This document shows positions 7,618 to 29,441 of a stretch of DNA of 46,740 nucleotides, in pieces. The stretch comes from Acidobacteriota bacterium (GTDB lineage: Bacteria; Acidobacteriota; Terriglobia; Bryobacterales; Bryobacteraceae). Each line of letters starts with the position of its first letter. Within the stretch, counting starts at the first letter, position 1. The notes beneath the pieces are model-generated. The model worked only from the letters and a program-made list of their open reading frames with translations. It did no database searches and had not been told where the DNA came from. The stretch covers positions 1 through 46,740 of the forward strand of contig JAFKEE010000067.1 in NCBI GenBank assembly GCA_017307505.1. Direction: 5' to 3'. A program made the position numbers and the translations under genes.

Positions 7618-7622
7618 GCGGT

Positions 7623-11463: not shown

Positions 11464-11514
11464 ACAAACCTGGATCCATGCTACTATGCGGAAAGACCAG
11501 CCCACACACTTCGC

Positions 11515-11677: not shown

Positions 11678-13615
11678 CTAGACGGAAGGTTTCTTGGCGC
11701 CGCTGTAGGCGAATAGAGGCCGGGGCTGCGGCTTCCCATCCACAAGAATATGCTTCAACTGGCTGTAATAGAGCGTGTGACACAGATCCAGCCGGACTCC
11801 GGGCCTCCGGTAGCTCGTAATCCTGTGCCCTGCCGCCGTCTCATCGCTCACCACTCCGGACATCACCTTGGCCCGGAACTTGTCGAAAGTCGCATCCTCA
11901 GCCGAGCTCCCCAGTTCCGCCACGAAGCCGTTGCAGGTCTCCAAAAGCGCCTTGCGCGAAAAGCGCCGCGCCGGACCCTCGTAGTTGACGAACTGGATCG
12001 CATAGAATCCGCGATCCTTCTCCACCCGCACCACCTCTTTCCGTCCATGATTCGTCAGAATCAGCGGGCGGAACGCGGCATATAGAAAATCGTCCTCCAC
12101 CCACACCACTCCGTCCTTTGCGTCAAACTCGACCCTCTTCAGATCACGGTAGAAGGCCGGCAGAACCACCGTCAGCCGCAACGCCCGGTAGTCATCCAGA
12201 AACTGAGCCTTGGCCTGATAGAGCGCTAGCACGGTGCCGTCCTTCTGAACGGCCCGGACCCGGCCGGCGTCCGCCAGGATGTCCCGGCTCGGATGGGGCT
12301 CCGCTGAACGCGGATCGGACCACGGATACCCCGGCCGATCTTCGTTGACACAGTAGCGGCAGTAGATGGTCCCGGTCTCCTTGATGGAAGCCGGCCGCGG
12401 CGACCGCCGGAAGTTCACGAAGAATGCATCGGTCTGGTTCCCGTCATGCATCTGCACAGTGGCGCTGCCCACGGCATAATCGGGCGTCATGTAGGTGGTC
12501 GTGACGCACTCGCCGCCCTGATACTCCATCACCTCCTGAGTCGGCACAAACTTGCCGGAGGAGTCGCGACTCATCACCATACCCGTCGCCGTACCATGCT
12601 CCGTCGTACCGGTGACATGGAACGGGAACGGCTTCTGGAAGGCCAGCCGCTCGATCTCTCCTGTGGGGTGATAGGTGCCGCTGGCGATCCACACGGTGGA
12701 GCACTGCATGAAGGGCACATCGCCATCGTGATGGATCTCCTGGTGCTCGATCGGCGGGAACATGAACCGCTTTGGATTCAGCCACAGCTTCTCACCAAAC
12801 GCCTGGTAGAACAGCATGTGGATCTGGTGCAGGTGCCCCACGCTATCCACGGAGTAGGCGCGCGAATGCGGCCCCGCCAGGATATTGGTCGGCGCATGGA
12901 AGCGCGTTGCCACATCCAGCCAGATCCGCCGCTCCAATTGGAGGGCAAGTCTTCGCGCTTCGGCATGGCGCGCATACTCGGCCACATTTGAGATGCAGAG
13001 CAGCGTGACCGGCGAGTAAGTGGAGCTGGTATATTCCGACAGCAGTCCACGCGATTCGAAGTAGTCGAGCAGCGCGCGCATGCTGTCGATCCCACGTTGC
13101 ACGGCGGAGTCGTCGTGGAACATCTCGCCGCCCAGTACGGCCACCACAAGTTCCATCGCCGGGAAGTTGTCGTTGTATCCCAGCCACCGGATGGCGCCCT
13201 TCCGGGCAAACGTCTCGCGCACCAATGACGACAGCAGCTCCCGGTTCCCGGCGGTCAATTCGCCTTTGTCCGCGGCCAGAATCTGCACGGAAGCCGTGAA
13301 CTCAAAGTGCGAGAAAGTCCACTGGAACTCTTTGCGATTCCTCATCTCAAAGGTCCGGGCGATGATCGCGTTTGCCTTCGCCCGCGTGGCGTCCGATTTC
13401 AGCAGCGAGATCGCGTGCCACAGCCGCTCACGCCCGCCGGGGGCCGTCGAATCGGCAATCCAGACGCCATGATCATCAAACTTCGGTCCGCAGTCCCGCT
13501 GGTGCAACGCATAGATCTCAGCCCGGCGGCGACTCTGCCCGGCTTCATCCCATCCCGCGCTCAACACGGCGGCAGGCGCGGCGGCTAGGCCACCAAGGAA
13601 TTCACGTCGTTCCAT
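11678..13615 (-). CDS. Tat-exported protein of unknown function, possibly polysaccharide-lyase-like
   Basis: The 645-residue protein starts with a twin-arginine signal (MERREFLGGLAAAPAAVL), so it is probably exported folded through Tat. The N-terminal about 300 residues are helical, with many aromatic and His residues (WLGYNDNFPAMELV, SHFEFTASV, HAPTNILAGPHSRAYS). This could suit an (alpha/alpha) toroid as in heparinase or alginate lyases. The C-terminal half looks beta-rich (GTYHPTGEIERLAF, QVMEYQGGECVTTTYMTP), as in the sandwich domain of such lyases. I do not recognise a specific family or a catalytic set. It is the last gene of a four-gene minus-strand operon, six bases after the SGNH hydrolase gene. 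That context favours a role in breaking down an acidic or acylated polysaccharide. Confidence 0.65.
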   Translation of the reverse strand: MERREFLGGLAAAPAAVLSAGWDEAGQSRRRAEIYALHQRDCGPKFDDHGVWIADSTAPGGRERLWHAISLLKSDATRAKANAIIARTFEMRNRKEFQWTFSHFEFTASVQILAADKGELTAGNRELLSSLVRETFARKGAIRWLGYNDNFPAMELVVAVLGGEMFHDDSAVQRGIDSMRALLDYFESRGLLSEYTSSTYSPVTLLCISNVAEYARHAEARRLALQLERRIWLDVATRFHAPTNILAGPHSRAYSVDSVGHLHQIHMLFYQAFGEKLWLNPKRFMFPPIEHQEIHHDGDVPFMQCSTVWIASGTYHPTGEIERLAFQKPFPFHVTGTTEHGTATGMVMSRDSSGKFVPTQEVMEYQGGECVTTTYMTPDYAVGSATVQMHDGNQTDAFFVNFRRSPRPASIKETGTIYCRYCVNEDRPGYPWSDPRSAEPHPSRDILADAGRVRAVQKDGTVLALYQAKAQFLDDYRALRLTVVLPAFYRDLKRVEFDAKDGVVWVEDDFLYAAFRPLILTNHGRKEVVRVEKDRGFYAIQFVNYEGPARRFSRKALLETCNGFVAELGSSAEDATFDKFRAKVMSGVVSDETAAGHRITSYRRPGVRLDLCHTLYYSQLKHILVDGKPQPRPLFAYSGAKKPSV

Positions 13616-13621
13616 CGCTCC

Positions 13622-15082
13622 TCATTTCATCGGCGGACGGTAAACCTGGATCGACTCGATCGGCACAACGCCATCCCCGTTGGGAACCACCTCCAGCGTG
13701 TGCGGACCATTCGTCAGCCCCTGCGCCACCGTCTCCACATAGACCTTCGCGGGATCGGTGGTCTCCGGCGCCCGGTACTCGTCCACATGCATCGGCTTCA
13801 CGCTCCACTTCACCTCATACCCCACCGGAGGAGGGGTGGTCTGCTTGAAGATCTTCATGATGTCGGCCAGCATCCAATCCCGCGGTTCAATCACCACGCG
13901 GCCCGACTTGGAGACAAACGGCTCCCACGAGTTCCCTGCCCCATCGGGTCCGGTCTTCGAGCCGGTCACTTCGAAGCGGAACCGCGTGGCCGTCGCATCG
14001 ATCTCCTTGATGCGGAGCGTCCAGTCCTCCACCAGGGGCATGCTGCGATAGGTCACGCGCCGGATGCAGGGGAACCACGTCTGCGGGCCGCGACTGGGCA
14101 GGGTGACGGCATAAGCCCGGATATCCTGTGAGGGCGGCTTGCCGTCGATCAGGATCTTCGCCGTCCCCCGCGCGGGACCGTCTTTCATGTAATCGGCCAC
14201 GATGTCCACGCGATTGCCCTCAAACCGCAGCCGCAGCGGACTGGAAGGCGACCGCCCCACCGCACCCTGCCGGTCGAGTTCCCACGGAGCACCGCCAAAC
14301 GTGATCTCGTCCAGCGCCTCTTCCAATGGCCGCTTGGCCTCGTACGTCCGGACCATTTCGATGCCTGAACCGGCCGGCAGCAGCGGGTTATAGCGCAGGT
14401 GCCGCCCGATGAATGTGGTGAGCAGCGCCAACCCATCCTGGTTCGGGTGCACGTTGTCGCGCAGCAGGCGGGCCGGATCCAGATTGTTCTTCTCCAGGTA
14501 GGCCGGCCACTCGGTCGAGATCTCCACCAGTTCGAAGTTGTACTTCTCCGACAGCGCGCGGAAAACCTTCGGCGCGAACTCGAGGTCCGCCTTCCGGTCT
14601 CTGGTCTGATGGTGATTGAAAAGCACAATGTCGGCCGTCGTATAGCGCCGGACGTTGGAAAGCAGCCGCTCCAGATCGCCGGTCTTCTCTCCGCCGTAAA
14701 CATGAAAGATCAGCAGATCCGGATAGAACGGATAGAGATCGTGCCAGGCCGTGCGCACCAGACGGTCGGCATTGAACCCGCCAATCGACCGGTTCTCCAA
14801 CTGCAGGTCCGCATAAGGAAACCGCTCCCGCAGGAACTTTTCGATCATGCCTGTCAGCACCGTGCTTCCGGTGATCGATTGCCCATAGATCAGCACCCGC
14901 ACCGGCCAGCGCCGCTCTTTCGAGCTCGTCGCCAGCAGCGTCATCGAGCGTTGGATTCGCCCGCCGTAGAACGCCTGTTGCGGTTCATCGACCGGCGGCG
15001 GCAACGGCGGCGCGGGCTCCTGGCCCCGGCAAATGCCGGCTAACAGCAATGCGGTAGTGAACCAGACTCCTGGCAGCTTCAT
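13622..15082 (-). CDS. Secreted SGNH/GDSL-type hydrolase (putative carbohydrate esterase)
   Basis: The product is 486 residues from the ATG at 15082, just after an in-frame GTG; a GAGGGAGG-type ribosome-binding site lies directly upstream. It has a signal peptide (MKLPGVWFTTALLLAGICRGQ). The SGNH blocks are seen as IYGQSITGS (nucleophile Ser in a GQS rather than GDS setting), ENRSIGGFNAD, FHVYGGEKTG, and DNVHPNQDG with the Asp-x-x-His dyad. A second half of about 250 residues carries beta-rich stretches (LRFEGNRVDIVADY and others). SGNH enzymes of this type often deacetylate or de-esterify plant or microbial polysaccharides; the substrate here is unknown. The gene is 36 bases after the large RIFT/FN3 protein gene and six before the Tat-exported protein gene, which supports one transcript. 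Confidence 0.8.
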   Translation of the reverse strand: MKLPGVWFTTALLLAGICRGQEPAPPLPPPVDEPQQAFYGGRIQRSMTLLATSSKERRWPVRVLIYGQSITGSTVLTGMIEKFLRERFPYADLQLENRSIGGFNADRLVRTAWHDLYPFYPDLLIFHVYGGEKTGDLERLLSNVRRYTTADIVLFNHHQTRDRKADLEFAPKVFRALSEKYNFELVEISTEWPAYLEKNNLDPARLLRDNVHPNQDGLALLTTFIGRHLRYNPLLPAGSGIEMVRTYEAKRPLEEALDEITFGGAPWELDRQGAVGRSPSSPLRLRFEGNRVDIVADYMKDGPARGTAKILIDGKPPSQDIRAYAVTLPSRGPQTWFPCIRRVTYRSMPLVEDWTLRIKEIDATATRFRFEVTGSKTGPDGAGNSWEPFVSKSGRVVIEPRDWMLADIMKIFKQTTPPPVGYEVKWSVKPMHVDEYRAPETTDPAKVYVETVAQGLTNGPHTLEVVPNGDGVVPIESIQVYRPPMK

Positions 15083-15118
15083 CACCCTCCCTCTTAGGCC
15101 CAGCCTGAATCTCTAGCG

Positions 15119-18100
15119 TTAAGGCATGGGGTAATACAGATCTATAGTCGAAGCCGGAAACTCAGCCGCGCGTCTCCGGAACGGCTCACCCGGCCGCGGA
15201 TCCCAGTTGCGCCAGCTCGCCGGATCCGTGTCGGCGCCTCCGGCGCGAGGACCTTCGCCCAAGCCGTCCACCGCGGACACAGCGTACTCATAAATCTGCT
15301 CCCCGGAAGCCCCTCGATCCGTGTAGCTGCGTCCGGTGCCGGCATAGATCCGCTGAAACTCTGCCTGGCCCCGGGCGCGCCGATACAGCCGGTACTCGGT
15401 GACACCCAGCACTTCGCCCCACTGCACGGTCACCGCTCCTGATGCCCCGCGCACCTTGAGGCCATCTGGCGGCAGCGGCGCCTTGCCCGTGACGTACACG
15501 GGATACTCCGGCCCGGGCTCACTCTGCTTCTGTCCGTTGAGGGCGATGGCGCGCACATGCACCTTCACCCCGGCGTTCAGCCCGGTCAGCGTCGTTCCCT
15601 GCATGGCGGTCCAGGTCGCTCCGTTGTCCCTGCTCAACTCCACTCGATACCCTGTCGCGCTGGCCACCGGCTTCACGAAGACGCGGGCGCCCCCGGGCAC
15701 CGACTCCGTCCGCTGAATGCGCGGCGCAAGCGGCGTCGGTGTACCGTCCGTCCATTGCCAGGAATGCTCACCGGCCGGCAACACCACGACGCCGGAATTC
15801 ACGGGCACTGCCGCACCATCTACATAAAACGTGCCACGCCCACCGCTCACTACCAGGCGCGCTTCCACGCGCGCGAGATACTGGCCACGCACATCCCCCG
15901 GCTCACGGAAACGCGCGCTGATGCCCAGATCCTTCGTGTCTGATCTCAGCACCACGCCCTGGGTCCCGATTCGGGAGCCGCTCATCAGCGCCATCTCATG
16001 CGTCCCGTCGGCCAGATGCCGGACGACACCGGCCGTGCCGTCAAACACGCTGCCGTCTCCTTCGAAGTGGACTCCCTCCGGGTCGCGGAACACCTCGTCA
16101 GTTGCGCGCGCCGATCGCACGCGGCATCCATAGGGCCGCGGCTCGACAGAGAGATCCTTATGCTGGCTCACCACTGCCATCGAGTCACCGACCCCATCCA
16201 ACCAGAACCCCTTCGAAACCCGCGTTTCCAGCGTCGTCCGCTCCGAGTCCTTCCCGCCTCCGCGAACAAACTCGACAAGCGGCAACTCGTCATGCTTGCC
16301 CGTGAACCAGGAGAACCGGTGGCGAATCGCCTGGTTGTACACATCGTCATAGGTGACGAAGTAGTCGCTGCCCACCAGCATCAGGGTGCGGCTGACATAC
16401 TCAGGCGTCGCATACGATCCGGCGCCAGTGCGCGGCAGTAGCTCCGCGTACTGGGCCGAGCCCAGGTCATACAAAGGCCGCGTCAACACGTTGCGGCCAA
16501 TGGAGCGATAACTGCCGTCCTTCCAGACTCCGAAGTTCGTCCCGAAATCCGTGTCCTGGGCATTCCGGTCTCCTACGTCTTCCTTGCCGTTGTGGCTGTA
16601 GGCCTTCCCGCCGGCATAGAAGTAAATGGAACCGTTGCCGCCCTCCGCCGCCACGCCCCAGCGGTAGTTCGGACCGTCGTCGATCTGCTGCAGATGGATG
16701 GATAGCTCCCGCGGCGTGTCCACCGCGGCACGCAGAACAAGGCCGTAGCCGGTGTACTTCTCCGAATGGAGGTGCGGATTGGTCCCCCGATTGTCCGGTC
16801 CTGGATAGAGACCGGCCCAGGGCTCCTTGTAGTCGCGCGGCAACTCCGAATCATCGTCCGTAGGGCGCGAGGCCCACATCAGCGCCTCGCTCATCAGTGG
16901 ATCAAACCTCTGCAGCAGCGTTCCCAGATGCCACATGGCCCGCGGGGGCATGCGTCTCTCGGCATGCGCACCTTGCGGCGGATAGATCCGGCGTGGACCC
17001 TCCTCCCGCCTCACCATGCCCGCCATGTGGTGCGACCACGGCTTCACGTTGAGCATCTCCGGATCTTCACCCTCAAACGGAGCCGTCAACGCACCCACCA
17101 GCCAGCGCCCCAACTGCGATGTCTCAGCCAGTGCGAACCGGTTCTTTCCGTCGAACTCGTGCAACGCGTAGTTGGCGCGGATCGCAGGTCGTACGAACCC
17201 CCACACATAGGTGCCGATGTTCTCCGTCCACCGTCCGCCCAAGGCGTTCCACTGTGGCACGTCCGGCCGCGTATGGTAATGCGAATTCAGCTCCAGGTAC
17301 TTCTCAAATTCGTCAGCCCAAACATGCGCCATCGGGTGCTCCGGGAAAAGAAACGACATCACGGCCGGCACGCTCTTCACATCGGAAAGAAAGTTCGGAT
17401 GCCCGCTCAGCATGGGCCGCATGGGCATGTAGTCTTCACCCGCGTGCGTGTACGCCATCAACAGGAAAGCGGCTGTCAGCCTGCGCCGAGCCTGCGGGGT
17501 GAGTTCGCTCCAGTGCCGGTGAAATGGCGGCACCCAGGAGTGCTCGATCTGCCGGCTCGGTACAGGCCCGAAACCGCTGTTTTCGCGAGTTCCACCGGCG
17601 GGCAGCTCCACAATGAGATTCGATTGCAGGACGCGGCGCTCCAGGTCGCTCACCTTGGCCTCATCGGTGCCGCCCAAAACCGTCGAAGGCCGCCGCGCGC
17701 TGTCGGGATACTCCAGCACCCAGTCCTTGTACTCATTCAGATCCAGAACACCGTGGCGGTTCTGCAGATAGCCCGCATACGATGCTGGCGAAAGCTCGGC
17801 GCGATACGTCACGCCGCCTTTGTCCTTCATACCCGCACGCATGCGTTCGCGTTCAGCCATCGCGTCTTTGTCCTTCTGGTGGTCGTAGGCCGCGATGCAC
17901 GTCGACCGGCCGCCCTCCGCCAACGGCCAGCGCCACGACAGTTGCCCATTCTTGTAGAAGTAACGGACCTGCAGTTTCGTGGAGGACGACCAGATGGAAT
18001 ACTCCCCATCCCGCCATGTCCCCACCTTGTCGATGAAGACGCCCACCGCATCGTTCGTCTTCTCATTCCAGAACGCCGCATACGTGCCGACGATGAACGC

Positions 18101-19042
18101 GGGCCAGGGCTGATACAGGCCCAGCCGGAACGGCAACTCACCGCTCGGGCTGTTCCCCGGCATCACACCGATGTGCGTATTCAACTGAGCGAAGTCCATC
18201 CGCTCCCAGGGATAAGCTTCATACCCCTGCCCCGCCACCAGCTTGCTACCGGGGATGTAAGGATGGTTCGGAGCCTGGCGATGAGTCGGTGACAGCCCGG
18301 TCCAAGTCATCTCCAGATACGCTCCGGCCGATGCTTCGACGCCTTCCACGGACTCCCTGAACTCGAAGTAGTCGCAGCCGGCCAACAGCCGCAAAGTCGC
18401 GGTGTACGAGCCCTTGGGCGACAGGCGGTAGGCCACCTGATACGTGGCAAAGAGCGGCCCGCTCTCCACCCGCTCCGCCGTGATCTCTTCCACTCGGAAA
18501 CCCGGTGAGACGATCCTGGAATCGCCCATCCACGCGCCGCCGCGCGAGACCTGCATCACCGGTCCCGGCGCCTCTCCGGCAATCTTCTGCGAAGCCGGAA
18601 TTCTCACTTTCATCACGCCGGTATCCAGCACCAGCGATTGCCCTTCCTTCGTCTCCCGGATCCCCATCGGAAATTCCCGGCCCGGACCGCGCCGCAGCTC
18701 AAAGCTCTTCGTCTCACCGGAATCCAGGCTTGAAAACCAGCTCACCGTGGCGCTCCGCATCCGCCCGCTCTCCATCTTCGGCTCGGAGATCTGGTACGGC
18801 AGCGCGGTTCCGCTGCCATCCACCAGCACCAGGCGTTCGCCCGGGGCCAACCCGCCTTCAAACTCGACTGGGTAGCTCAACAGTGTGCGCGGCCACGAGT
18901 AGAACGGATGATCCAGCGCCTCCTTCAGCACCACCTTCAACGGGCCGGACGCGGGAACCACACGGGGTGCGGCATGAACCGTAATGGCCGCCATCCAGAC
19001 GGCCGCCGCCACGCTCAGGGAATATGGAGAAATTCTGCGCAT
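15119..19042 (-). CDS. Large secreted RIFT-barrel (PcRGLX/YetA-like) protein with C-terminal fibronectin type III domains
   Basis: The product is 1307 residues from the ATG at 19042, where a signal peptide begins (MRRISPYSLSVAAAVWMAAI). A farther in-frame ATG at 19117 would place a GC-rich hairpin inside the coding region and is not favoured. Residues about 30-160 (ERLVLVDGSGTALPYQ, GRMRSATVSWFSSL, SGETKSFELRRGPG) resemble the N-terminal RIFT barrel of exo-rhamnogalacturonan-lyase/YetA-like proteins. A long helical, His- and Trp-rich middle part follows (for example MAYTHAGEDYMPM, WTENIGTYVWGF). The last about 230 residues hold two fibronectin type III-like domains (VASATGYRVELSRDNGATW, then GVTEYRLYRRARG). 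A polysaccharide lyase or a binding scaffold is plausible. It follows the TonB receptor gene by 100 bases and a strong hairpin. Confidence 0.72.
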   Translation of the reverse strand: MRRISPYSLSVAAAVWMAAITVHAAPRVVPASGPLKVVLKEALDHPFYSWPRTLLSYPVEFEGGLAPGERLVLVDGSGTALPYQISEPKMESGRMRSATVSWFSSLDSGETKSFELRRGPGREFPMGIRETKEGQSLVLDTGVMKVRIPASQKIAGEAPGPVMQVSRGGAWMGDSRIVSPGFRVEEITAERVESGPLFATYQVAYRLSPKGSYTATLRLLAGCDYFEFRESVEGVEASAGAYLEMTWTGLSPTHRQAPNHPYIPGSKLVAGQGYEAYPWERMDFAQLNTHIGVMPGNSPSGELPFRLGLYQPWPAFIVGTYAAFWNEKTNDAVGVFIDKVGTWRDGEYSIWSSSTKLQVRYFYKNGQLSWRWPLAEGGRSTCIAAYDHQKDKDAMAERERMRAGMKDKGGVTYRAELSPASYAGYLQNRHGVLDLNEYKDWVLEYPDSARRPSTVLGGTDEAKVSDLERRVLQSNLIVELPAGGTRENSGFGPVPSRQIEHSWVPPFHRHWSELTPQARRRLTAAFLLMAYTHAGEDYMPMRPMLSGHPNFLSDVKSVPAVMSFLFPEHPMAHVWADEFEKYLELNSHYHTRPDVPQWNALGGRWTENIGTYVWGFVRPAIRANYALHEFDGKNRFALAETSQLGRWLVGALTAPFEGEDPEMLNVKPWSHHMAGMVRREEGPRRIYPPQGAHAERRMPPRAMWHLGTLLQRFDPLMSEALMWASRPTDDDSELPRDYKEPWAGLYPGPDNRGTNPHLHSEKYTGYGLVLRAAVDTPRELSIHLQQIDDGPNYRWGVAAEGGNGSIYFYAGGKAYSHNGKEDVGDRNAQDTDFGTNFGVWKDGSYRSIGRNVLTRPLYDLGSAQYAELLPRTGAGSYATPEYVSRTLMLVGSDYFVTYDDVYNQAIRHRFSWFTGKHDELPLVEFVRGGGKDSERTTLETRVSKGFWLDGVGDSMAVVSQHKDLSVEPRPYGCRVRSARATDEVFRDPEGVHFEGDGSVFDGTAGVVRHLADGTHEMALMSGSRIGTQGVVLRSDTKDLGISARFREPGDVRGQYLARVEARLVVSGGRGTFYVDGAAVPVNSGVVVLPAGEHSWQWTDGTPTPLAPRIQRTESVPGGARVFVKPVASATGYRVELSRDNGATWTAMQGTTLTGLNAGVKVHVRAIALNGQKQSEPGPEYPVYVTGKAPLPPDGLKVRGASGAVTVQWGEVLGVTEYRLYRRARGQAEFQRIYAGTGRSYTDRGASGEQIYEYAVSAVDGLGEGPRAGGADTDPASWRNWDPRPGEPFRRRAAEFPASTIDLYYPMP

Positions 19043-19074
19043 GAAGTTGATCTGAGGTGAGACTCTTTCAGCCT

Positions 19075-19111
19075 CCGCCGGGCCGGCAGGGAGCACGAGC
19101 CGGCCCGGCGG
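19075..19111 (-). other. Perfect 13-bp inverted repeat between receptor gene and next operon gene
   Basis: CCGCCGGGCCGGC (19075-19087) and its exact complement (19099-19111) enclose an 11-base loop. No T-run follows on the minus strand. It therefore looks more like an mRNA-stabilising or partial-attenuation hairpin between the receptor and the downstream genes than a full terminator. Confidence 0.6.
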
Positions 19112-19142
19112 ATTCATCTACTGACTGTATACCCGGCGGCCG

Positions 19143-22100
19143 CTAGAACCGGAACATGATGTTCGTGCGGATGGTGCGATTGCCCAGAATCCCGTTCTGT
19201 CCAATCTTCCCGAACGTCGAGTTGATCGAGAACGGAGTCGCCGGCGTGCTGCGATTGTAGCTGCCGGTAACGAACTGGCGTCCGTAGTTCGGGTTGAACG
19301 CAAACACCGGATGATTCAGGGCGCCCATGAAGTCGCCGCGCAGTTCGATCTCGAACCGCTCGCGGATCTTCACGGTCTTGAACAGGGCCGCGTCAAACTG
19401 GTTCATCCACGGACTGCGAATCCACGGCAGCACGCGCCCCGCGTTCCCCAGTTGCGGATTGTCCAGCGAACCCGGCACGCCGAAACAGGAGGGATTCACA
19501 TACTCGCCATTGATCGGATCCTTCCGCCAATTCGGATTGATCAGATAGGAGCAGGGCATCACCTGCGGCCGCAGCGAAATGGCTCCGCCGTCAATCGCGT
19601 CGCCGCCGCCTGTGGACATGTAATAGCCCGTGCCGCCCAGCGTGATGCGGAACGGCTGTCCAGCCTGGCTCGAAAACATGCCCGACGTCCGCCAGTCGGC
19701 CAGAATGCCCTTCAACACGGGATTGCGTGGATTGTAGAGCTTGCCGGAACCGGTGCCCACAGGCAGTTCGTAGGTGTAGCCCACCACGATCCTCTGCGGA
19801 ATGTCGTTGATCGAAATCGCCTTCTCCGGACGCAGATCCGAGTAGTCCTGGGCCGGCGCGCCGCCCCACCACGTGGAACTCACCGCCGCGCTGGTCGCAT
19901 TGTCGATCGCCTTCGACACCGTATAGGAGGCCAGGAACGTCAATCCCTTGCTGAACCGCTGCCGGATCGCCGCATACCAGGCGTGGTAGATCGAGAAACC
20001 GCTGCGGTCGAAGTACTGCGGGATACCCTGGTTGAAAAACTGCTGGTAAGGCCGCAGCGCGCCAAACATATTGGTGGTCTGCACGCGTCCGGCGGAATCC
20101 GTGAGACCCAGCGGGTTGTTCACGGTCTGGCTGAAGTTCGCGTGCTGCTGGATGTAAGGCAGCACCGCATCGCGCGAGGGCGCATTGATGTTGTGCGACG
20201 GCAGGAACAGGTGCAGCCCGCGCGTGCCGTTGTACCCCGTCTCCAGGACGGCGTTTCGCGCAATCTCATACTGCATGCTGAACGACCACTGCTGCGTGTA
20301 TGGCACCGCGCTGCTCTGGTCCACATTCAACACGCTGACGCTGGAGCCGGCAAACACCGGGTCGCGGGTCAACACCGCTGACGCGGGTATCGTGCCGATG
20401 GGATTCGTGATCAGGTTCACCTGGCCGGCATTCGTGCCGCCGTTCGTACCGCCGATCGTGGTGTTGGTAGCTCCCAGCTCAGGTAGCACGGACGCCGTCG
20501 GAATGCCCAGGTTCGTCAGCGGAGCATGCAACAGGGCATACGACGCCCGAACGCTGAAACGCGAGAACGGATTCCACGCCAGGCCCACGCGCGGCTCGAA
20601 GCCCGCGTAATTGGTTGGCCACAGCGTGCGGCCCAGCCCGTTCGTGCCGGACCACGCAAACCCGCCCATCACCGGAATGCCATTCACCTGCCCGGCCAGC
20701 CCGGGCAGGAACGACCCCTGGCGGTCGTACTTCTCCGTTCTCGGAGTCTCCACCTGATACCGCACTCCAAGATTCAACGTCAGCCGCGGCGTGACCTTGA
20801 AATCGTCCTGGAAGTAACCAGCATAGTAGCGCCACCGGTAGTAGTAGGGAATGCGGACCGTCTTCACCTGGAAGCTGGAGATATTGCCCAGAATCAGAGT
20901 TGCGATGCCCTCGCCCGTCGCAATGCCATTGCCCGTATTGCCGGCATCGAAGTTGACTTGCCCGCCGTAGAGGTTCGCTTCCGGATACTTGTTCTGCTGG
21001 AACGACCGGATGTCCACGCCGAACCGCAACGAGTGCCGGCCCCGCAGCATCGAGAAGTCCTCGCCGAACCCGTAGTTGGCATCCACGCTCCGTCCGTCCG
21101 ACGTGCCCACCCCGACATCCGAGATCCCGAAGTTGAAGCGCGGAATGCCGACGCCCGCGGTCGAGGCCGGCAACCCGTAATCCGGCGCCCAGTCCTTCGA
21201 GATGCCCGACGGCGCCGGACCCCGGTAGAGATTCATCCGGCTATAGGTCAACCGCGTCTCGCTCACCAGATTCGCGCCAAACAGGTGGGTCTCGCTCACC
21301 GCCACGTTCCGCGAAACGATGTTGTCCTGCGGAATGGCGTTGTAGGGAGAATCCGGACCCCAGTAGTTGAACCGGATCCCCTGGTTCGGCGAGTATGAAT
21401 ACCGCACGCTCAACCGGTCATTCGCGCTCAGCTGATGGTCGAACTTCATGTTGTAGCGGTCGTCGTAGTTCTTCACGCCACGGGCGCTGTAGGCGTTCTG
21501 CCCGCTGACGTTATACAGCCCGTCCGGACGCAGGAAGATCGCGTACGCGCCCGGCTTGTCCGGCGTCGGGAACGCCGACAGCAGCTTCTGCGCCACCGGG
21601 TTCTTCGCCAGTTGGGCCGACAGATTGTTGTTGGCGATCCGTACATACTCCGCGCTGGTTGCATACGGCATACCCACCGGGAATCCATCCGCATTCACCG
21701 GGCTCTGGTAATACAGGTTGTTGATGGTGCCCTTCGCTTTTGCCGCATCCATCCCCTGCGTCCGGACCACATTCTGATCCAGCAGGTTCCACGAATAGCG
21801 GAAATCCCCCTGTAGTTCATAGGGGTTCGGCAGGCGGTACAGGCTCCAGGCCAGGTCACTCTGCCGCGCCGGCTCGTAGTTGAACAGGAAGAATGTCTTG
21901 TCCCGGCCGTTGTAGATCTTGGGCAGAATCACGGGACCGCTGATGACGCCATTGAAGAAGTTCTGGTGCTTCATCCCGCGCTGCGGCGAGGCGAACTGCC
22001 TGGCGTTGAAGAACGGATCGTTGTGGCCCCAGCCGGCATTGCCGTGCCACTCGTTGGATCCTGACCTTGTGGTCTGATTGATCACACCGCCGCCGGTGCG

Positions 22101-22823
22101 GCCATATTGCGCCGGTACACCGTTGCTCACCACGGTCACTTCCTGAATCGTGTCACGGGAAAAGGTCATCGCCGGACGAGGCAGCGTCGTGGCTGCGATA
22201 TCGGAACCATCCACCAGGACCGACGCCGTGCCCGGCTGCCCTCCGCCAATCGCCGTGCCTGCGTTCGGCTGGACATACCCGGTGTACGCGTTGGCCGTCT
22301 CTGATCCCACACCACCCGGCTCGGACGTAACGCCCGGCACCAGCAGGATCACGCCCAGCGTGCTGCGTTCGGCCTGCGGCATGTCCTGCACCAGCTTGCT
22401 CTCCACCGTCGAGGCCACCATGGCCGTATCGGTCGAGAGCAGTGGCGTCTTGGCTTCCACCGTCACCGCTTCCTTGACGGACCCCAGCTTCAGGGCCACC
22501 TCCACGGAACTCACACGGGCCGTCAGAACTTCCACCTCAGGCAGCACCGCCTGCTGGAACCCGGCCGCCGAAACCGTCATCTTGTACATGCCGGGCTGCA
22601 GCGAAGGAGCGACGAACAGACCGCTTTCGTTGGTCGTTACCTTGACCGTATAACCGGTGGCCGTGTTGGCGATATCCACCGTAGCTCCGCTGACCAGGGC
22701 ACGCTGCCCGTCAAAAACCTGACCCGTAATCTGACCCGTATTGGATTGTCCGAATAGACAGCCCATTGCGGCCAGAACTAGCGAGGCGAGACTTAGCCGT
22801 TGCTGTTTCACTTGGAACCTCAT
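19143..22823 (-). CDS. TonB-dependent receptor, Oar-like, with N-terminal carboxypeptidase-regulatory-like domain
   Basis: This 1226-residue outer-membrane protein has a signal peptide (about 1-25). A carboxypeptidase-regulatory-like domain follows (about 28-110, TGQVFDGQRALVSGATVDI ... NESGLFVAPSLQPGMY). Next comes a plug domain (about 115-240, with VLVDGSDIA, DTIQEVTVVSNGVPAQYGR and GGGVINQTTRSGSNEWHG). The rest is a long beta-barrel ending in NIMFRF, with the terminal Phe typical of outer-membrane barrels. This architecture is abundant in Solibacter-like acidobacteria and is thought to import oligosaccharides or similar ligands with TonB-ExbBD energy. The ATG at 22823 follows GGGAGATAGGG. 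It leads an apparent operon with three secreted proteins. A TATAAT box with an upstream direct-repeat motif precedes it. The ligand is unknown. Confidence 0.95.
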   Translation of the reverse strand: MRFQVKQQRLSLASLVLAAMGCLFGQSNTGQITGQVFDGQRALVSGATVDIANTATGYTVKVTTNESGLFVAPSLQPGMYKMTVSAAGFQQAVLPEVEVLTARVSSVEVALKLGSVKEAVTVEAKTPLLSTDTAMVASTVESKLVQDMPQAERSTLGVILLVPGVTSEPGGVGSETANAYTGYVQPNAGTAIGGGQPGTASVLVDGSDIAATTLPRPAMTFSRDTIQEVTVVSNGVPAQYGRTGGGVINQTTRSGSNEWHGNAGWGHNDPFFNARQFASPQRGMKHQNFFNGVISGPVILPKIYNGRDKTFFLFNYEPARQSDLAWSLYRLPNPYELQGDFRYSWNLLDQNVVRTQGMDAAKAKGTINNLYYQSPVNADGFPVGMPYATSAEYVRIANNNLSAQLAKNPVAQKLLSAFPTPDKPGAYAIFLRPDGLYNVSGQNAYSARGVKNYDDRYNMKFDHQLSANDRLSVRYSYSPNQGIRFNYWGPDSPYNAIPQDNIVSRNVAVSETHLFGANLVSETRLTYSRMNLYRGPAPSGISKDWAPDYGLPASTAGVGIPRFNFGISDVGVGTSDGRSVDANYGFGEDFSMLRGRHSLRFGVDIRSFQQNKYPEANLYGGQVNFDAGNTGNGIATGEGIATLILGNISSFQVKTVRIPYYYRWRYYAGYFQDDFKVTPRLTLNLGVRYQVETPRTEKYDRQGSFLPGLAGQVNGIPVMGGFAWSGTNGLGRTLWPTNYAGFEPRVGLAWNPFSRFSVRASYALLHAPLTNLGIPTASVLPELGATNTTIGGTNGGTNAGQVNLITNPIGTIPASAVLTRDPVFAGSSVSVLNVDQSSAVPYTQQWSFSMQYEIARNAVLETGYNGTRGLHLFLPSHNINAPSRDAVLPYIQQHANFSQTVNNPLGLTDSAGRVQTTNMFGALRPYQQFFNQGIPQYFDRSGFSIYHAWYAAIRQRFSKGLTFLASYTVSKAIDNATSAAVSSTWWGGAPAQDYSDLRPEKAISINDIPQRIVVGYTYELPVGTGSGKLYNPRNPVLKGILADWRTSGMFSSQAGQPFRITLGGTGYYMSTGGGDAIDGGAISLRPQVMPCSYLINPNWRKDPINGEYVNPSCFGVPGSLDNPQLGNAGRVLPWIRSPWMNQFDAALFKTVKIRERFEIELRGDFMGALNHPVFAFNPNYGRQFVTGSYNRSTPATPFSINSTFGKIGQNGILGNRTIRTNIMFRF

Positions 22824-22888
22824 CCCTATCTCCCAATTTGTTGGCGCCTTCTTCCGAGAAGCCGCCTCGGCTCTAGGACCCGAGGGCG

Positions 22889-22933
22889 ATTATAGAAATG
22901 GGTGCTCCCCAGCCAGTGATCAAATCTTCTCAA
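22889..22933 (-). promoter_or_regulatory. Putative promoter and operator of the TonB receptor operon
   Basis: On the minus strand a consensus TATAAT occupies 22894-22889, and the hexamer 17 bases upstream (ACTGGC) is a poor -35. At 22933-22920 lies TTGAGAAGATTTGA, a direct repeat TTGA-N6-TTGA with a 10-bp period. That is the format bound by OmpR/PhoB-type winged helices. The gap to the -10 is 25 bases. A near copy precedes the gene at 26890. The leader downstream contains a small CCTCGG/CCGAGG hairpin. Confidence 0.5.
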
Positions 22934-22972
22934 TCCGGATCTCAAGCCCTGGAAATCCCGGCGTTACACACC

Positions 22973-23001
22973 TTGGATCGCGGCACATCCGGCGGTATAA
23001 G
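22973..23001 (+). promoter_or_regulatory. Putative sigma-70-like promoter of the winged-helix regulator
   Basis: TTGGAT (22973-22978) and TATAAG (22996-23001) are 17 bases apart and point toward the GTG at 23028. The -10 matches five of six consensus bases, the -35 only three. The predicted leader is about 20 bases. Confidence 0.4.
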
Positions 23002-23027
23002 ATAATCGCTTAGCCCGGAATGAACCA

Positions 23028-25199
23028 GTGGAGTCGAGCCAGTCCAAATCGCCAGCAGCCCCGCGCGACATCGCCCAGTACCGCTTTGGCGCCTACGAGC
23101 TCGACGTTACGCACCGCCAGCTCGCCCGCGACGGGTCGCCCGTACCGCTCGCCTCCAAGGTGCTCGACACGCTCATCGAGCTGATTCGCCGCCGGAATGC
23201 CGTCGTGACCCGGGAGGAGTTACTTTCCGCGATTTGGCCCGACGTTAACGTTGAAGATTCGAACCTGACCCAGAACATCTTCGTGCTGCGCAAAGCACTG
23301 GAACAGCCCGGAGACCCCAGGCTCATCGTCACCGTTCCCGGCAAAGGCTACCGGTTTGTCAGCGAGGTCACAGAGGTCCCTACCCACCCGGCCGTGGAGC
23401 CGGGGCCGTCCACCGTCCCGGCAGGATCCCTTGCTCGCCCTTCCCTGAAGACATGGGCGCTGCTCAGCGTAGCCGGATTGCTGCTCGCCGGAGCCGCCCT
23501 CGGCTACCTGGCCCTGCGCAAAGATCCTCTGGCCACGCCCGCCCCCGCCGCACGCTTCCTCACCAGCCTGCCGGGCAACGAAAACCAGCCGGCTCTCTCC
23601 CCCGACGGCTCCTCGGTCGCCTTTTCCTGGAATGGCGAGGATCAGGACAACTACGACATATATATAAAAGGTGTGGGCGCCGAGACGCCGGTCCGCCTCA
23701 CCAGCCAGGCAAGCGAGGAGACCAGCCCTGTCTGGTCGTCCGATGGAAGCCGGCTGGCCTTCGTCCGGGTTTCCCCTGCCGGCGGCGCAATTTATACCAT
23801 CGACGCCCACGGCGGTGGTGAGCAGAGGGTCGCCTCCATCTTCAGCCAGCGCTTCGGTTTCCGCGTCCGCCACCTCGACTGGTCGCCCGACGGTGCTTCC
23901 TTTGCCGTCGACGACAAAAGCAACGAGGAAGATACTGTCAGCATCTTCATCGTGTCCGCCGGCGGAGCCCGCCGCCGCCTTACTTCGCCGCCCGCCCGCT
24001 CCACCAGTGACCTCGCGCCCCGCTTCTCACCCGATGGCCGGCAAGTCGCGTTTATCCGGTCCATTGCGCCTCATCTCCGGGCGATCTACCTGGTGCCCGC
24101 CGCCGGCGGCAGTCCGGTCCGCATCACTGCGGATCTGAATTGGATCGGCGACCTCGACTGGTCGCCCGATGGCAAGGAACTCGTCTATTCCACAGACCGG
24201 TCCGGCACCCCGGCCTTGTGGCGCACCCGCTCCCTGCCCGGATCCACCCCGCAGCTGTTGCGCCCCTCCGGCGAGAACGCTCAGTTCGTCTCGGTCTCCC
24301 GGCGAAAAGGAAACCTGGCCTATACGCAGGCCATCACGGACATCAACATCTGGCGCATGCGTCTGCCCGTCAACGGAGAATCCGAAGGCGAATGGACGCG
24401 GCTCCTGACCTCCACCCGCGAGGACAGCGTCGCCCATTACTCGCCGGATGGCAAACACATCGGATTCCGATCGGATCGCTCGGGCAGCCCTGCCATCTGG
24501 ATCTCCGATGCGCAGGGCCACCAGCCAGTCCAGCTGTTGAAAACAGGAGCCATGCCTGGCACCGTCGCCTGGTCGCCTGACAGCCGTGCCATCGCCTACG
24601 ATGTCCTGATTAACGACACCCTCCAAGTCCTCACCGTTCCTTCCACTGGAGGCAAACCCACTCAACTGACCTTCGACCGTTCCTCCCACGTCCTGCCGCA
24701 GTGGTCGCCCGATGGCCGCCAACTCTACTACACGTCCAACCAGAGCGGTACCTGGCAGGTCTGGCGGATTCCGGCCACCGGCGGGACGCCCGTACAGGTG
24801 ACAAGGCAGGGTGGCTGTTGCGCCCGGTTTTCGCCCGACGGTCAGACGATCTACTACGCCAAAGGGTACTCGGCCGGGGGTATCTGGAAAACCGCGGCCG
24901 AAGGCGGCGTGGAAGAGGTGGTGATCCCGGAAGTGCAGGCCGAATACTGGGGCTTCTGGGCGGTGGTCGAAAAGGGCATTTACTTCCTGGGCGGAGGTAC
25001 GCCGGGCGTTCCCCCGCCGCCCTCCATCAGGTTCTACGATTTCCAGACGCGGCACATCTCCACCGTAGCCCACCACGAGAAGCCCGGCTTCCTCATGGGC
25101 GCATACTCCTACTCCATCTCACCGGATCGCCGCTATCTGCTCACCTCTCAGCTCGATACGTCGACCAGCGACATCATGCTCATCGACACCATCCGCTGA
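23028..25199 (+). CDS. CadC-like membrane-bound transcription regulator with TolB/WD40 propeller sensor
   Basis: The 723-residue protein begins with an OmpR/PhoB-type winged-helix DNA-binding domain (about 18-113: YRFGAYELDVTHRQLARDG ... SKVLDTLIELIRR ... REELLSAIWPDVNVEDSNL ... VPGKGYRFVSEV). One transmembrane segment follows (about 142-164, TWALLSVAGLLLAGAALGYL). A large periplasmic propeller of TolB/PD40-type repeats fills the rest (recurring LSPDGSSVAFSW, WSPDGASFAVD, FSPDGRQVAFIR, WSPDGKELVYS, WSPDGRQLYYT). It has no receiver domain, so the signal is probably sensed directly, perhaps as a sugar or peptide binding the propeller. The GTG start has only a weak GGAA upstream. It is divergent from the TonB receptor operon and convergent with the enzyme gene ending at 25208. 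That makes it the obvious local regulator. Confidence 0.88.
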   Translation: MESSQSKSPAAPRDIAQYRFGAYELDVTHRQLARDGSPVPLASKVLDTLIELIRRRNAVVTREELLSAIWPDVNVEDSNLTQNIFVLRKALEQPGDPRLIVTVPGKGYRFVSEVTEVPTHPAVEPGPSTVPAGSLARPSLKTWALLSVAGLLLAGAALGYLALRKDPLATPAPAARFLTSLPGNENQPALSPDGSSVAFSWNGEDQDNYDIYIKGVGAETPVRLTSQASEETSPVWSSDGSRLAFVRVSPAGGAIYTIDAHGGGEQRVASIFSQRFGFRVRHLDWSPDGASFAVDDKSNEEDTVSIFIVSAGGARRRLTSPPARSTSDLAPRFSPDGRQVAFIRSIAPHLRAIYLVPAAGGSPVRITADLNWIGDLDWSPDGKELVYSTDRSGTPALWRTRSLPGSTPQLLRPSGENAQFVSVSRRKGNLAYTQAITDINIWRMRLPVNGESEGEWTRLLTSTREDSVAHYSPDGKHIGFRSDRSGSPAIWISDAQGHQPVQLLKTGAMPGTVAWSPDSRAIAYDVLINDTLQVLTVPSTGGKPTQLTFDRSSHVLPQWSPDGRQLYYTSNQSGTWQVWRIPATGGTPVQVTRQGGCCARFSPDGQTIYYAKGYSAGGIWKTAAEGGVEEVVIPEVQAEYWGFWAVVEKGIYFLGGGTPGVPPPPSIRFYDFQTRHISTVAHHEKPGFLMGAYSYSISPDRRYLLTSQLDTSTSDIMLIDTIR

Positions 25200-25207
25200 T
25201 CCACCGG

Positions 25208-26890
25208 TCACGAACGGGGAAAAGCGGCGCGGATCTGTTTGATGTAGGTGCGAATCATGGACGCTTTCAGAATCGACACGCGCTCCCCGTACTCCTGCTC
25301 CACCGCCACGGCCTGAGCTTCCAGTTCCGCCAGCGCGGCCTCAAACCGGTGAAGATTCTCCGCATTGGCCCGCTGCTTCTGGATCCGGTAGCGTAGGAAT
25401 GCCTCCATGTGAGGGATCGCGACCTCAATGAACCGCCGCTGCAGCCGCAACTGGCCGGTCAGCTTTTCATACTCCGCCTTGTTGAGACTTCCGCGCACCG
25501 TTTCGACATCATCCAGGGACAATTGATTCAAGCGCAGGGCCTCCACCCGCTCCGCCTTCACCCTTTCCACGGTGTACTCTCTTGGGTTCTCAGTAACTTC
25601 CCGCACTCGCGCTGCGGTCCGAAAATCACCCGGATTCCACAGCAGCATGCTCCGCGCAAACTGTACGAAGTGGCTCTCGAGGTAGGGAAGGTCCGAAAGG
25701 GCGCTGTGATTCTGCACCCAGATCCCGTCCAAATAGTAGAAGCGGTTTGCAATCTCGTTGGTCCTCTGTAGCGCCGAGATCACTTTCGGCGCCGCCGCAG
25801 CGCCAAAGCGGCCCTCCGCCCACTCCGACCAGATTCGCTCGATGGGCGTCTCAGGATCCCGGGCCAGCCGCGACAGCGCGAAGAAGTTCACCTCGTTGTA
25901 GTTGCCGAAAACAGTGGTCCCGTTCACCCAGTGCACCCGCATGCCGAGGGTGTCTATGCTCCGGTTGTTCCGCAGGGCGTGCTGCAGGCGCTGCTGGATC
26001 TCCTCCGGATAGCAGTACGGCATCAACGACTGCCCCCAATACTCACCCGTGCCGTCATAGAGCAGGATCGCCTCGCGGTCCGTCACGTTCAACATCACGT
26101 TGTTTGCCGGCCTCTGCGGAGTCCAGTCGCCCGGCTGCACCTTGTGGTCGAGCAGCATCGGCACGTCGCCGTCCATCTGCCGCAGTGCCTCAATAATCAG
26201 CTTCTCCTGCCACGGCACGTGGCTGAACGTCAGGAATACGAACTGCCTCTGCGCATCCACCGCGCCCCGGGCATAAGCCGTCAGCGTCTCGGTGAGGAAA
26301 TCCGCCCGGCCGTAATGGGGGGTAATGGAAGCGAAAGCGTCCAGATTGGTCTTTTCCCAATACATCCCGGAGAAGAAGTCGACGTCGTTCAGGAACGGTG
26401 TCTCCCAGAGGTAGATCTCGAAGGCATCCGCCTCCGGCAGCTGCCGGAACAGCTCCGCCGTCGTGCTCCGCAGATACCGTTGAAACTCACCGGAAGCGAT
26501 CCGCCGGGCCTCCGGGTAAGCCTCGAAGAAGCCTTGCGGCGGATTTGGTCCGGGTCCGCTCAGCGTTACTTTGACACCCAGCCGCTTGAACCGCTGCAGT
26601 TGCCGCCGGTACTTGGCCACCCGTTCCGCGTCCACTACCCGCTTTACCTTCGGGAACTCTGAGTTCGTCACCCATTGCTCCGGTGTGAACCCATGGATCA
26701 TCACTTCGCCAATCCCGTATTCCCGGATCTTCTTCTCGAGCGTGGCCACGAACTCTTCGCCAGAAGGCTGCTCGAGCGTGTACGACAGAATCTCGGCACA
26801 AAGGCGCATCGGCTTGCGCGGAGAGCGCGCCCCGCCGGTGGCCGCCGGCAGCATCAAACCCAAACAGAGCAATAGAGAAACAATCCGCAC
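25208..26890 (-). CDS. Secreted TIM-barrel-like protein, possibly GH67-type glycoside hydrolase
   Basis: The product is 560 residues from a GTG at 26890. It was preferred over an in-frame TTG at 26908 because AAGGAG lies nine bases before the GTG. A signal peptide follows (RIVSLLLCLGLMLPAATGGA). The region YGIGEVMIHGFTPEQWV ... RFKRLGVKVTLSGPGPNPPQGFFEAYPEARR ... DAFEIYLWETPFLNDV looks like successive strands of a TIM barrel in alpha-glucuronidase-like hydrolases, with Glu in YLWETPF a possible catalytic acid. The C-terminal third is helical with a coiled-coil tendency (LRLQRRFIEVAIPHMEAFLRYRIQKQ). I cannot assign a family firmly. It lies eight bases from the convergent regulator gene and has a promoter like that of the TonB receptor operon. 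Confidence 0.65.
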   Translation of the reverse strand: MRIVSLLLCLGLMLPAATGGARSPRKPMRLCAEILSYTLEQPSGEEFVATLEKKIREYGIGEVMIHGFTPEQWVTNSEFPKVKRVVDAERVAKYRRQLQRFKRLGVKVTLSGPGPNPPQGFFEAYPEARRIASGEFQRYLRSTTAELFRQLPEADAFEIYLWETPFLNDVDFFSGMYWEKTNLDAFASITPHYGRADFLTETLTAYARGAVDAQRQFVFLTFSHVPWQEKLIIEALRQMDGDVPMLLDHKVQPGDWTPQRPANNVMLNVTDREAILLYDGTGEYWGQSLMPYCYPEEIQQRLQHALRNNRSIDTLGMRVHWVNGTTVFGNYNEVNFFALSRLARDPETPIERIWSEWAEGRFGAAAAPKVISALQRTNEIANRFYYLDGIWVQNHSALSDLPYLESHFVQFARSMLLWNPGDFRTAARVREVTENPREYTVERVKAERVEALRLNQLSLDDVETVRGSLNKAEYEKLTGQLRLQRRFIEVAIPHMEAFLRYRIQKQRANAENLHRFEAALAELEAQAVAVEQEYGERVSILKASMIRTYIKQIRAAFPRS

Positions 26891-27342
26891 GAATCCCGTC
26901 TCCTTCAACCCGGTAGAGTGCGGACCCGGATGGCGCCCCTCGTTCTTCTGAAGGGAGAATTCGGGATTCGGCGCAGGGCCGTCCGCATGGGTTCAGACGA
27001 GTCCGATTATAGGTTTCCCCCAAGCGCGGCAACCTCGGGCCCGGGCTCAAATAATCTCAAAGAATATCTGGGTGGATCCTGGCCCCTGTTAGCCCCTCGT
27101 TACCGCGTCGCTCCTGGCCGTTCTTACCCGGACTTTCATCTCGCCATGCGAACAACCTGCCTTTAAGTGCCGATCCATCGGCACCGCCGCTATCTCTTGA
27201 TTCTGCATTACGCCGGCCCGGAAGGCAGGAGGAATTCGTGATATTTCGGAGATTGGCCTGTTCGGAATTCTGGCAACGGCCGCCGGTTTCGGCGCCCTCG
27301 AACTCCTGATCCGGCAGTAAGTTTGCACTTTACAGGTACCAC
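26891..27342. other. Intergenic region between two minus-strand genes
   Basis: These 452 bases hold the putative promoter and operator of the gene starting at 26890, listed separately. A short open stretch at about 27192-27320 on the plus strand ends with a hydrophobic tail (GLFGILATAAGFGALELLIRQ) and a TAA at 27318. It has no ATG, GTG or TTG start in frame, so it is not called as a gene. It may be the remnant of a membrane-protein gene. Nothing else is recognised. Confidence 0.5.
27006..27060 (-). promoter_or_regulatory. Putative promoter and operator of the secreted TIM-barrel gene
   Basis: A minus-strand TATAAT lies at 27011-27006 with a poor -35 (GGTTGC at a 17-base spacing). TTGAGATTATTTGA at 27060-27047 matches the motif before the TonB receptor in 12 of 14 bases and has the same TTGA-N6-TTGA layout. 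The gap to the -10 is 35 bases, exactly ten more than at the receptor promoter. The predicted leader is about 108 bases. Confidence 0.5.
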
Positions 27343-29166: not shown

Positions 29167-29441
29167 CATTCCCTCCGGATTCACAGCCCATCTCGGCTGT
29201 CGAGTCTAACATTATCCATTTGCCCCGTCTGGTCCCATCGAAAGTAATACAGGCCTATCTCAACTGATAGCTAAAGCAATGAAATGCAATAGCTTGTACT
29301 GGCTCTTACCAGTGAAAAAGGAACGTCGAAAAGATAGCGCATCCTGCGGGCTGGCGGCCCCCGGACTCCAAACCGTCGTGGTCTGCGGCGCACCGGCGGC
29401 GTTGTCCCGTCCCGGCTCAACCCCAGGTAGAATCGGAATCG

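Follow-up and report, generated by a model that had tools for sequence, protein, structure and literature searches.

The 46,740-nucleotide stretch of contig JAFKEE010000067.1 analysed here (the window), from a member of the Bryobacteraceae (Acidobacteriota), contains two copies of a direct repeat, TTGA-N6-TTGA (the box), located on either side of a gene for a predicted membrane-anchored regulator made up of a winged helix and a TolB-like propeller. One box lies upstream of an operon headed by the gene of an outer-membrane protein (OMP, the receptor), and the other upstream of a gene for a secreted-type TIM-barrel protein. Both sites are conserved in a second genome of the genus, and the box travels with the regulator across two genera. 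With a probability of about 0.7, as estimated from sequence comparison, the repeat serves as operator for this regulator, which is encoded between both promoters and would switch on the genes for the receptor, a 1332-amino-acid (aa) protein, a 487-aa protein and the TIM-barrel protein.

The window belongs to a 9.4 Mb genome (G000), and comparison was made with 237 genomes of the family and with a closer set of 60 relatives. Genome G005 is of the same genus as the window and G252 (7.7 Mb) of another genus, the code of which is shared by G254. For every genome-wide count of TTGA-N6-TTGA, the reversed pattern served as control.

The two boxes in the window and in the close relative

Two direct-repeat sites, their gaps of 25 and 35 bases to a TATAAT hexamer, and a poor -35 region at both hexamers had been described in the first-pass annotation, and all were found as described. 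The elements concerned are the following.

22920..22933, minus strand: box 1, TTGAGAAGATTTGA, from the motif scan, 100% conserved in G005
22940..22945, minus strand: third half-site TTGAGA, 12 bases upstream of box 1, conserved in G005
22889..22894, minus strand: TATAAT, -10 of the OMP operon promoter, with a poor -35
27047..27060, minus strand: box 2, TTGAGATTATTTGA (TTTGAG-N4-TTTGAG), a footprint by comparison with G005
27006..27011, minus strand: TATAAT, -10 of the TIM-barrel gene promoter
22996..23001, plus strand: TATAAG, probable -10 of the regulator gene, with TTGGAT at 22973-22978 and a 17-base spacer, assigned by eye

The boxes are identical at 12 of 14 positions, and box 2 lies ten bases higher than box 1 relative to its -10 (35 and 25 bases, respectively). 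They are the only TTGA-N6-TTGA repeats of the window, as the two hexamers are its only TATAAT. The -35 regions were called poor because no sigma-70 pair with at least 9 of 12 matches was found in 22700-27300, and there was no TTGACA-like -35 at 16–18 bases from either TATAAT. The same scan missed the probable promoter hexamers of the regulator gene, both of which are conserved in G005, with box 1 upstream of them on the opposite strand. Taking the -10 hexamer of the OMP operon as -12 to -7, box 1 would cover about -51 to -38 of the promoter.

Among the 60 relatives, the TIM-barrel gene was whole in G005 only (90% identity), which also held the nearest regulator (86%) and the nearest OMP (94%). 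Conservation at the orthologous locus was upheld, as G005 keeps both sites and both spacings. Site 1 is identical there and stands within a well conserved gap, whereas box 2 (14 of 16 positions identical) is flanked by diverged sequence, with 15 of 32 identities (47%) in the 32 bases downstream and 15 of 38 in the 38 bases upstream, and 11 of 11 around the -10. The two changes in box 2 fall in the middle of the repeat and preserve both TTGAG-N5-TTGAG and the 35-base gap. Judged by this alignment, box 2 is a true footprint, a conserved island in a diverged stretch. The blastn homology between the window and G005 stops at 27061, at box 2, because the window has there about 2.4 kb absent from G005. 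This segment (27062-29422), whose break point is immediately upstream of box 2, carries a PLD-like gene (27343-29184).

The bare repeat shows no enrichment. The window has 2 copies against 0.68 expected, a number reached in 13 of 100 shuffles, and 2 TATAAT against 1.84 expected, neither of which is significant, and in the whole of G000 there were 87 sites against 122 for the reversed control. A shared 14-mer with at least 12 of 14 identities arose in 4.75% of 2000 shuffled pairs, and a shared 4-mer direct repeat in 0.05% for a period of 10 and 0.65% for any period of 9–12. The arrangement of the repeat followed by 18–42 bases and TATAAT, in turn, was found in only these two places in the 9.4 Mb of G000, and in two places in G005, both orthologous to those of the window; genome scans of G006 and G003 gave none. 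In the 237 family genomes there were 32 such places in 28 genomes (reversed control, 11), and two non-overlapping places at one locus were seen in G000 and G005 only; the two in G146 are on different contigs, and the two in G191 overlap. TATAAT was present 15–45 bases downstream of 2 of the 87 G000 repeats, both being those of the window. Hence, the concern that the motif might be common at random applies to the bare core, and not to the arrangement with TATAAT.

Enrichment of the bare motif was discarded as evidence, motif and reversed counts being also 70/78 in G252, 96/100 in G183, 59/78 in G255, 41/78 in G254 and 115/119 in G080; the repeat was commoner than its control in G025 (30/20) and G126 (288/215). 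A wider regulon in G000 was likewise rejected: two more of the 87 repeats have a -10 with 5 of 6 letters within 15–45 bases, neither resembling a shared site. One-mismatch variants of TTGAGANNNTTTGA stayed near control level (45 against 41 in G000, 41 against 37 in G005). A palindrome of the FNR/CRP-like form, TTGA-N6-TCAA, was dropped because the conserved sites are direct and not inverted repeats, no dedicated palindrome scan having been run.

The box in another genus and at box-free loci

When the best four candidates per genome were scored across the 237 family genomes, the regulator of G252 ranked third (47% identity, E-value 2.0e-198) after those of the window and G005. On the G252 contig C60, this gene stands in tandem with an OMP_b-brl_4/CarboxypepD gene, and the 80-bp gap between them contains TTTTGAGATATTTTGAGG with a third half-site ten bases on; TTGAG-N5-TTGAG occurs 4 times in the whole of G252 (reversed control, 10). 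On contig C893, another of these four, TTTTGAGATGATTTGAGG, is located upstream of a second OMP gene, the divergent neighbour of which encodes a 54% identical homologue of the 1332-aa protein. On contig C34, TTTGAGAACTTTTGAA precedes a gene for a homologue of the 487-aa protein (68%), followed by that of another 1332-aa homologue. Protein searches recover C60 (by the regulator) as well as C893 and C34 (by the 1332-aa protein, best two candidates scored per genome), C893 having first been reached through the motif, one step before the protein search recovered it.

These three contigs (24.5 kb) hold 5 TTGA-N6-TTGA repeats, against 0.22 predicted from the genome rate of 70 in 7.7 Mb; two of the 5 overlap, and one is near the 5′ end of the regulator frame. 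Shuffled G252 gaps yielded a box at frequencies of 0.0057 (C60), 0.0187 (the gap between the OMP and 1332-aa genes) and 0.0033 (the pair of 487-aa and 1332-aa genes). Altogether, direct half-sites in the same orientation and with a 10-bp period make up 7 boxes (6 different 14-mers) in G000, G005 and G252, and 2 further ones in G025. The genes of what appears to be a single operon in the window are spread over separate units in G252 (loci L308 and L307), and each of the three units observed has a box.

Full-length homologues of the 1332-aa protein were present in 8 of the 237 family genomes, namely G000, G005, G252 (two), G126 (two), G183, G255, G254 and G080, while 52 further genomes gave just short C-terminal matches in the fibronectin type III (Fn3) region. 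The surroundings of the loci of G126, G183, G255, G254 and G080 (114 kb) contained no exact repeat and no regulator match, the G183 locus being uninformative as its contig ends inside the OMP gene. No repeat with up to one mismatch was found in the 400 bases upstream of 8 gene starts at the five remaining loci (two in G126, and those of G255, G254 and G080). The best regulator matches of these genomes were weaker (E-values 2.5e-72 to 3.0e-113) than that of G252, and G254 has the 1332-aa gene without the box and without so near a regulator.

In the tree of the ten 1332-aa proteins, box-bearing members were interleaved with the others, one G252 protein standing beside both from G126 and the second beside those of G080, G255 and G254. 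On the well supported branches, the box label has to change at least three times; when the label was shuffled over the ten rows, 257 of 500 shuffles required no more changes. Because of this interleaving, the box, as read from the tree, goes with genomes that hold the regulator and not with the ancestry of the 1332-aa gene. Nor is the box inherited with the OMP type, since the 12 kb surrounding the closest OMP paralogue (42% identity) had no TTGA repeat in G000, G005 and G007. The dedicated winged-helix/TolB regulon marked by the repeat, as proposed by the first-pass annotation, is well supported by comparison, through the sites of G005, the three G252 units and the five box-free loci without so near a regulator.

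The regulator and the genes behind the boxes

23028..25199, plus strand: regulator, with Trans_reg_C at residues 37-110, a hydrophobic segment at about 140-164, and a PD40/TolB-like propeller
19143..22823, minus strand: outer-membrane beta-barrel protein with a CarboxypepD_reg domain (OMP_b-brl_4), first operon gene
15119..19117, minus strand: 1332-aa protein with a weak C-terminal Fn3 match, second operon gene
13622..15085, minus strand: 487-aa protein with weak GDSL-lipase similarity, third operon gene
11678..13615, minus strand: 645-aa protein with no family assigned, probable fourth operon gene (6-base gap)
25208..26908, minus strand: secreted-type (beta/alpha)-barrel protein, likely start GTG at 26890 (by eye)

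The winged helix of the regulator was matched to PF00486 with 57.1 bits (cut-off 26.2). A single hydrophobic region follows the DNA-binding domain, its windows starting at residues 140-146, and was called as a membrane segment from hydropathy alone (Kyte-Doolittle mean of at least 1.6); according to the order of domain matches, the PD40 propeller is C-terminal to it. The nearest solved chains were TolB for the propeller (4r40, E-value 1.7e-15); for the winged helix they included CadC, PhoB and ToxR, with an E-value of 6.6e-8 for the match to the CadC DNA-binding domain 5ju7. The score against the NCBIfam TolB model, 210.9 bits, was far under its cut-off of 343.15. A domain scan matched no receiver domain in the regulator, and no other DNA-binding gene was found among the 16 window proteins and 3 frames of the G252 contig C60 that were scanned.

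Upstream slices of 300 bases were taken for 51 distinct winged-helix/TolB regulators, a selection of best matches. Exact repeats occurred in 3 of the 51 (window, G005 and G252), that of G252 being at the 5′ end of the regulator gene itself and distinct from its OMP box. In the regulator tree, window, G005 and G252 form one clade (100/98), outside of which G025 stands with G029. In G025, TTGAGGACTCTTGAGAAGATTTCAG lies just upstream of the regulator frame and shares TTGAGAAGATTT with box 1, and TTGATTTCTCTTGAG precedes an OMP gene 8 kb away from the regulator; as support for the system, this G025 box is suggestive only. Three TTSAG half-sites in 10-bp steps were observed just upstream of the regulator genes of G025 (L209 5167-5192) and G029 (L210 1724-1749), the G029 version being degraded.

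TTGAG as a box of the whole regulator family was rejected because the upstreams of 24 regulators, with that of the window among them, are not enriched and two paralogue groups (three genomes each) have other conserved blocks; in more distant paralogues, such repeats did not exceed chance. Upstream of another winged-helix/TolB gene, the block ACAGATATATCAGTCGATTCC is identical in three genomes (L100, L101 and L102) and is a candidate operator of that paralogue. At two other regulator/OMP neighbour pairs (G035, G020), the only place with a repeat is within the OMP coding stretch.

For the TIM-barrel protein, the structure model (mean pLDDT 72.8, moderate confidence) was closest to GH138 and GH67 enzymes, the best Foldseek hit being the GH138 chain 6hzf (E-value 9.8e-10, TM 0.51). 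There was no match to a GH67 or GH138 sequence family, the sole Pfam match being Glyco_hydro_67C with an E-value of 0.039, below cut-off. In the 237 family genomes, no near-full-length orthologue was found beyond G005, and any match at all in 9. Relatives with 42–44% identity are present in two contigs of Bacteroidia metagenome-assembled genomes (L098 3239-4933, L099 5056-6762), with neighbours of the GH88, GH29, GH78, GDSL and beta-helix types in L099, and GH88 and beta-helix in L098. Since the gene is near full length in 2 of 237 family genomes, yet has such relatives in Bacteroidia, the distribution suggests acquisition by horizontal transfer. The GH138/GH67-like model together with the carbohydrate genes beside the Bacteroidia relatives points to a uronic-acid-containing polysaccharide as the putative substrate. 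Elsewhere in the window, the operon has an ADP-ribosylglycohydrolase-like gene (9973-11505) on its downstream side, and the other strand carries a gene (7434-10004) for a SpoIIE phosphatase with PDZ and GAF domains.

Possible mechanism, alternatives and known systems

In the mechanism that we infer, the two winged-helix domains of a regulator dimer would bind two TTGAG half-sites one helical turn apart, TTGAG-N5-TTGA(G), in the manner of ToxR. At the OMP operon the box would stand where an activator of the OmpR/ToxR type replaces a poor -35, and at the TIM-barrel gene a full turn higher, facing the same side of the DNA. The propeller, predicted to be periplasmic, would sense something tied to the substrate of the receptor and secreted proteins (an acidic polysaccharide of plant type being the likeliest), after which the regulator would turn on the genes for the receptor, the 1332-aa and 487-aa proteins and the TIM-barrel protein as a set. 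A dimer on direct half-sites, replacing the poor -35, appears the likeliest arrangement because box 1 at -51 to -38 matches the position of the ToxR box at ompU, 5′-TNAAA-N5-TNAAT at -51 to -37 (PMC7496328, excerpt).

Several observations weigh against this reading. The boxes of G252 have CACAAT at a gap of 24 or no recognisable -10; for lack of good -10 hexamers there, the claim of gaps one helical turn apart before a perfect TATAAT holds in G000 and G005 and fails in G252, and a promoter geometry fixed in this way is not general. The TIM-barrel gene with box 2 is limited to two genomes. About 1.7 exact repeats would be expected by chance in the 114 kb of box-free loci, so that their absence alone proves little. 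A one-mismatch repeat was present in 11 of the 51 regulator upstreams, and those of 24 regulators, including that of the window, were not enriched at one mismatch (5 against 4 reversed). The four box-bearing regulators, with G025 included, never formed one clade in 200 bootstrap trees; the G025 box may be older, convergent or due to chance, and half of the box at its OMP gene might be no more than a -35. Finally, the CadC domain of Escherichia coli is reported to bind head-to-head TTAxxxxT sites (PMC5430869, excerpt).

That the resemblance is mere chance between two AT-rich promoter regions would fit the lack of enrichment of the bare repeat in genome and window, and the 4.75% of shuffled pairs sharing a 12-of-14 word. 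Box 2, however, is conserved within a diverged stretch, the arrangement with TATAAT is unique in G000, and three boxes stand at homologous genes in another genus; the comparisons with G252 and G005 largely refute chance, which we regard as very improbable. A real box could also be bound by another transcription factor, with the regulator a neighbour that has co-evolved with the same genes, and a 9.4 Mb genome presumably holds many further regulators. The presence of the box with the regulator clade, its absence from five same-family loci lacking the clade, and the 6.5-kb contig C60, where regulator and OMP are the only recognised genes, speak against such a factor and make it improbable.

Somewhat more credible, though still unlikely, is that the box is the operator of the regulator but that the genes are repressed until the propeller meets its signal, or that control is of either sign depending on the site. 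The position of the box relative to the start varies between loci, and the G025 box, placed by eye between the probable -10 and the start of the regulator gene, fits autorepression. ToxR itself does both, activating ompU and repressing ompT (PMC6733452, excerpt). Activation nevertheless agrees better with the poor -35 regions and with boxes that cover -51 to -38 or stand a helical turn higher.

Among known systems, ToxR of Vibrio cholerae is likewise a membrane-anchored one-component regulator with an N-terminal winged helix, a direct-repeat operator of 10-bp period (PMC7496328, excerpt; direct-repeat tox-boxes likewise in PMC10624426, excerpt) and OMP gene targets; unlike it, the window regulator has a TolB-like propeller as its predicted outer part, a TTGAG instead of a TNAAA half-site, and an Oar-type OMP with secreted proteins as putative targets. 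OmpR, too, binds direct repeats (PMC7496328, excerpt). The regulator shares with OmpR/PhoB the DNA-binding domain family PF00486, and differs in being one-component and, by prediction, membrane-bound, with no receiver domain matched. Direct repeats of OmpR/PhoB have a period of about one turn and lie near a weak -35. CadC resembles the regulator in its winged helix, one membrane segment and periplasmic sensor, the latter two being predicted here; the CadC sensor domain differs from the PD40 propeller. As the sites of CadC are head-to-head and the conserved boxes direct TTGA repeats, the form of the putative operator is by analogy closer to ToxR and OmpR than to CadC. With TolB of Tol-Pal the regulator shares PD40 propeller repeats, but it scores far below the TolB model and has a winged helix fused to the propeller. 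Polysaccharide utilisation loci of Bacteroidota combine a sensor, a TonB-type outer-membrane protein and secreted hydrolase-like proteins, with other types of sensor; the window locus is similar in gene set, differs in sensor type, and has a putative substrate.

First-look candidates in G000 numbered 77 for winged-helix/TolB regulators (18 scored) and 174 for Oar-type OMPs (11 scored), and dozens of the former and many of the latter appear to be present in genomes of this group. The best-matching open-access titles and abstract openings named neither a target nor a DNA site for any regulator built in this way. Transmembrane transcription regulators are somewhat more numerous in Acidobacteriae according to a survey (PMC10269533), and by word count its main text does not mention TolB, PD40, WD40 or TonB; a paper on the Solibacter genome (PMC3174227) likewise does not mention CadC, TolB or WD40.

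With a defined box and homologous genes now known from two genera, one system of this type is open to bench experiments. A suggested route to the targets of other regulators is to look for features common to the promoter set of a clade and missing in non-carriers. Tentatively, winged-helix/TolB-propeller regulators, a large acidobacterial class, may here have their first traced operator, and the box could hint at a general plan in which each regulator would be wired through its own direct-repeat box to private Oar-type receptors and secreted enzymes, a counterpart of the polysaccharide utilisation loci, with regulons that would outlast the break-up of operons.

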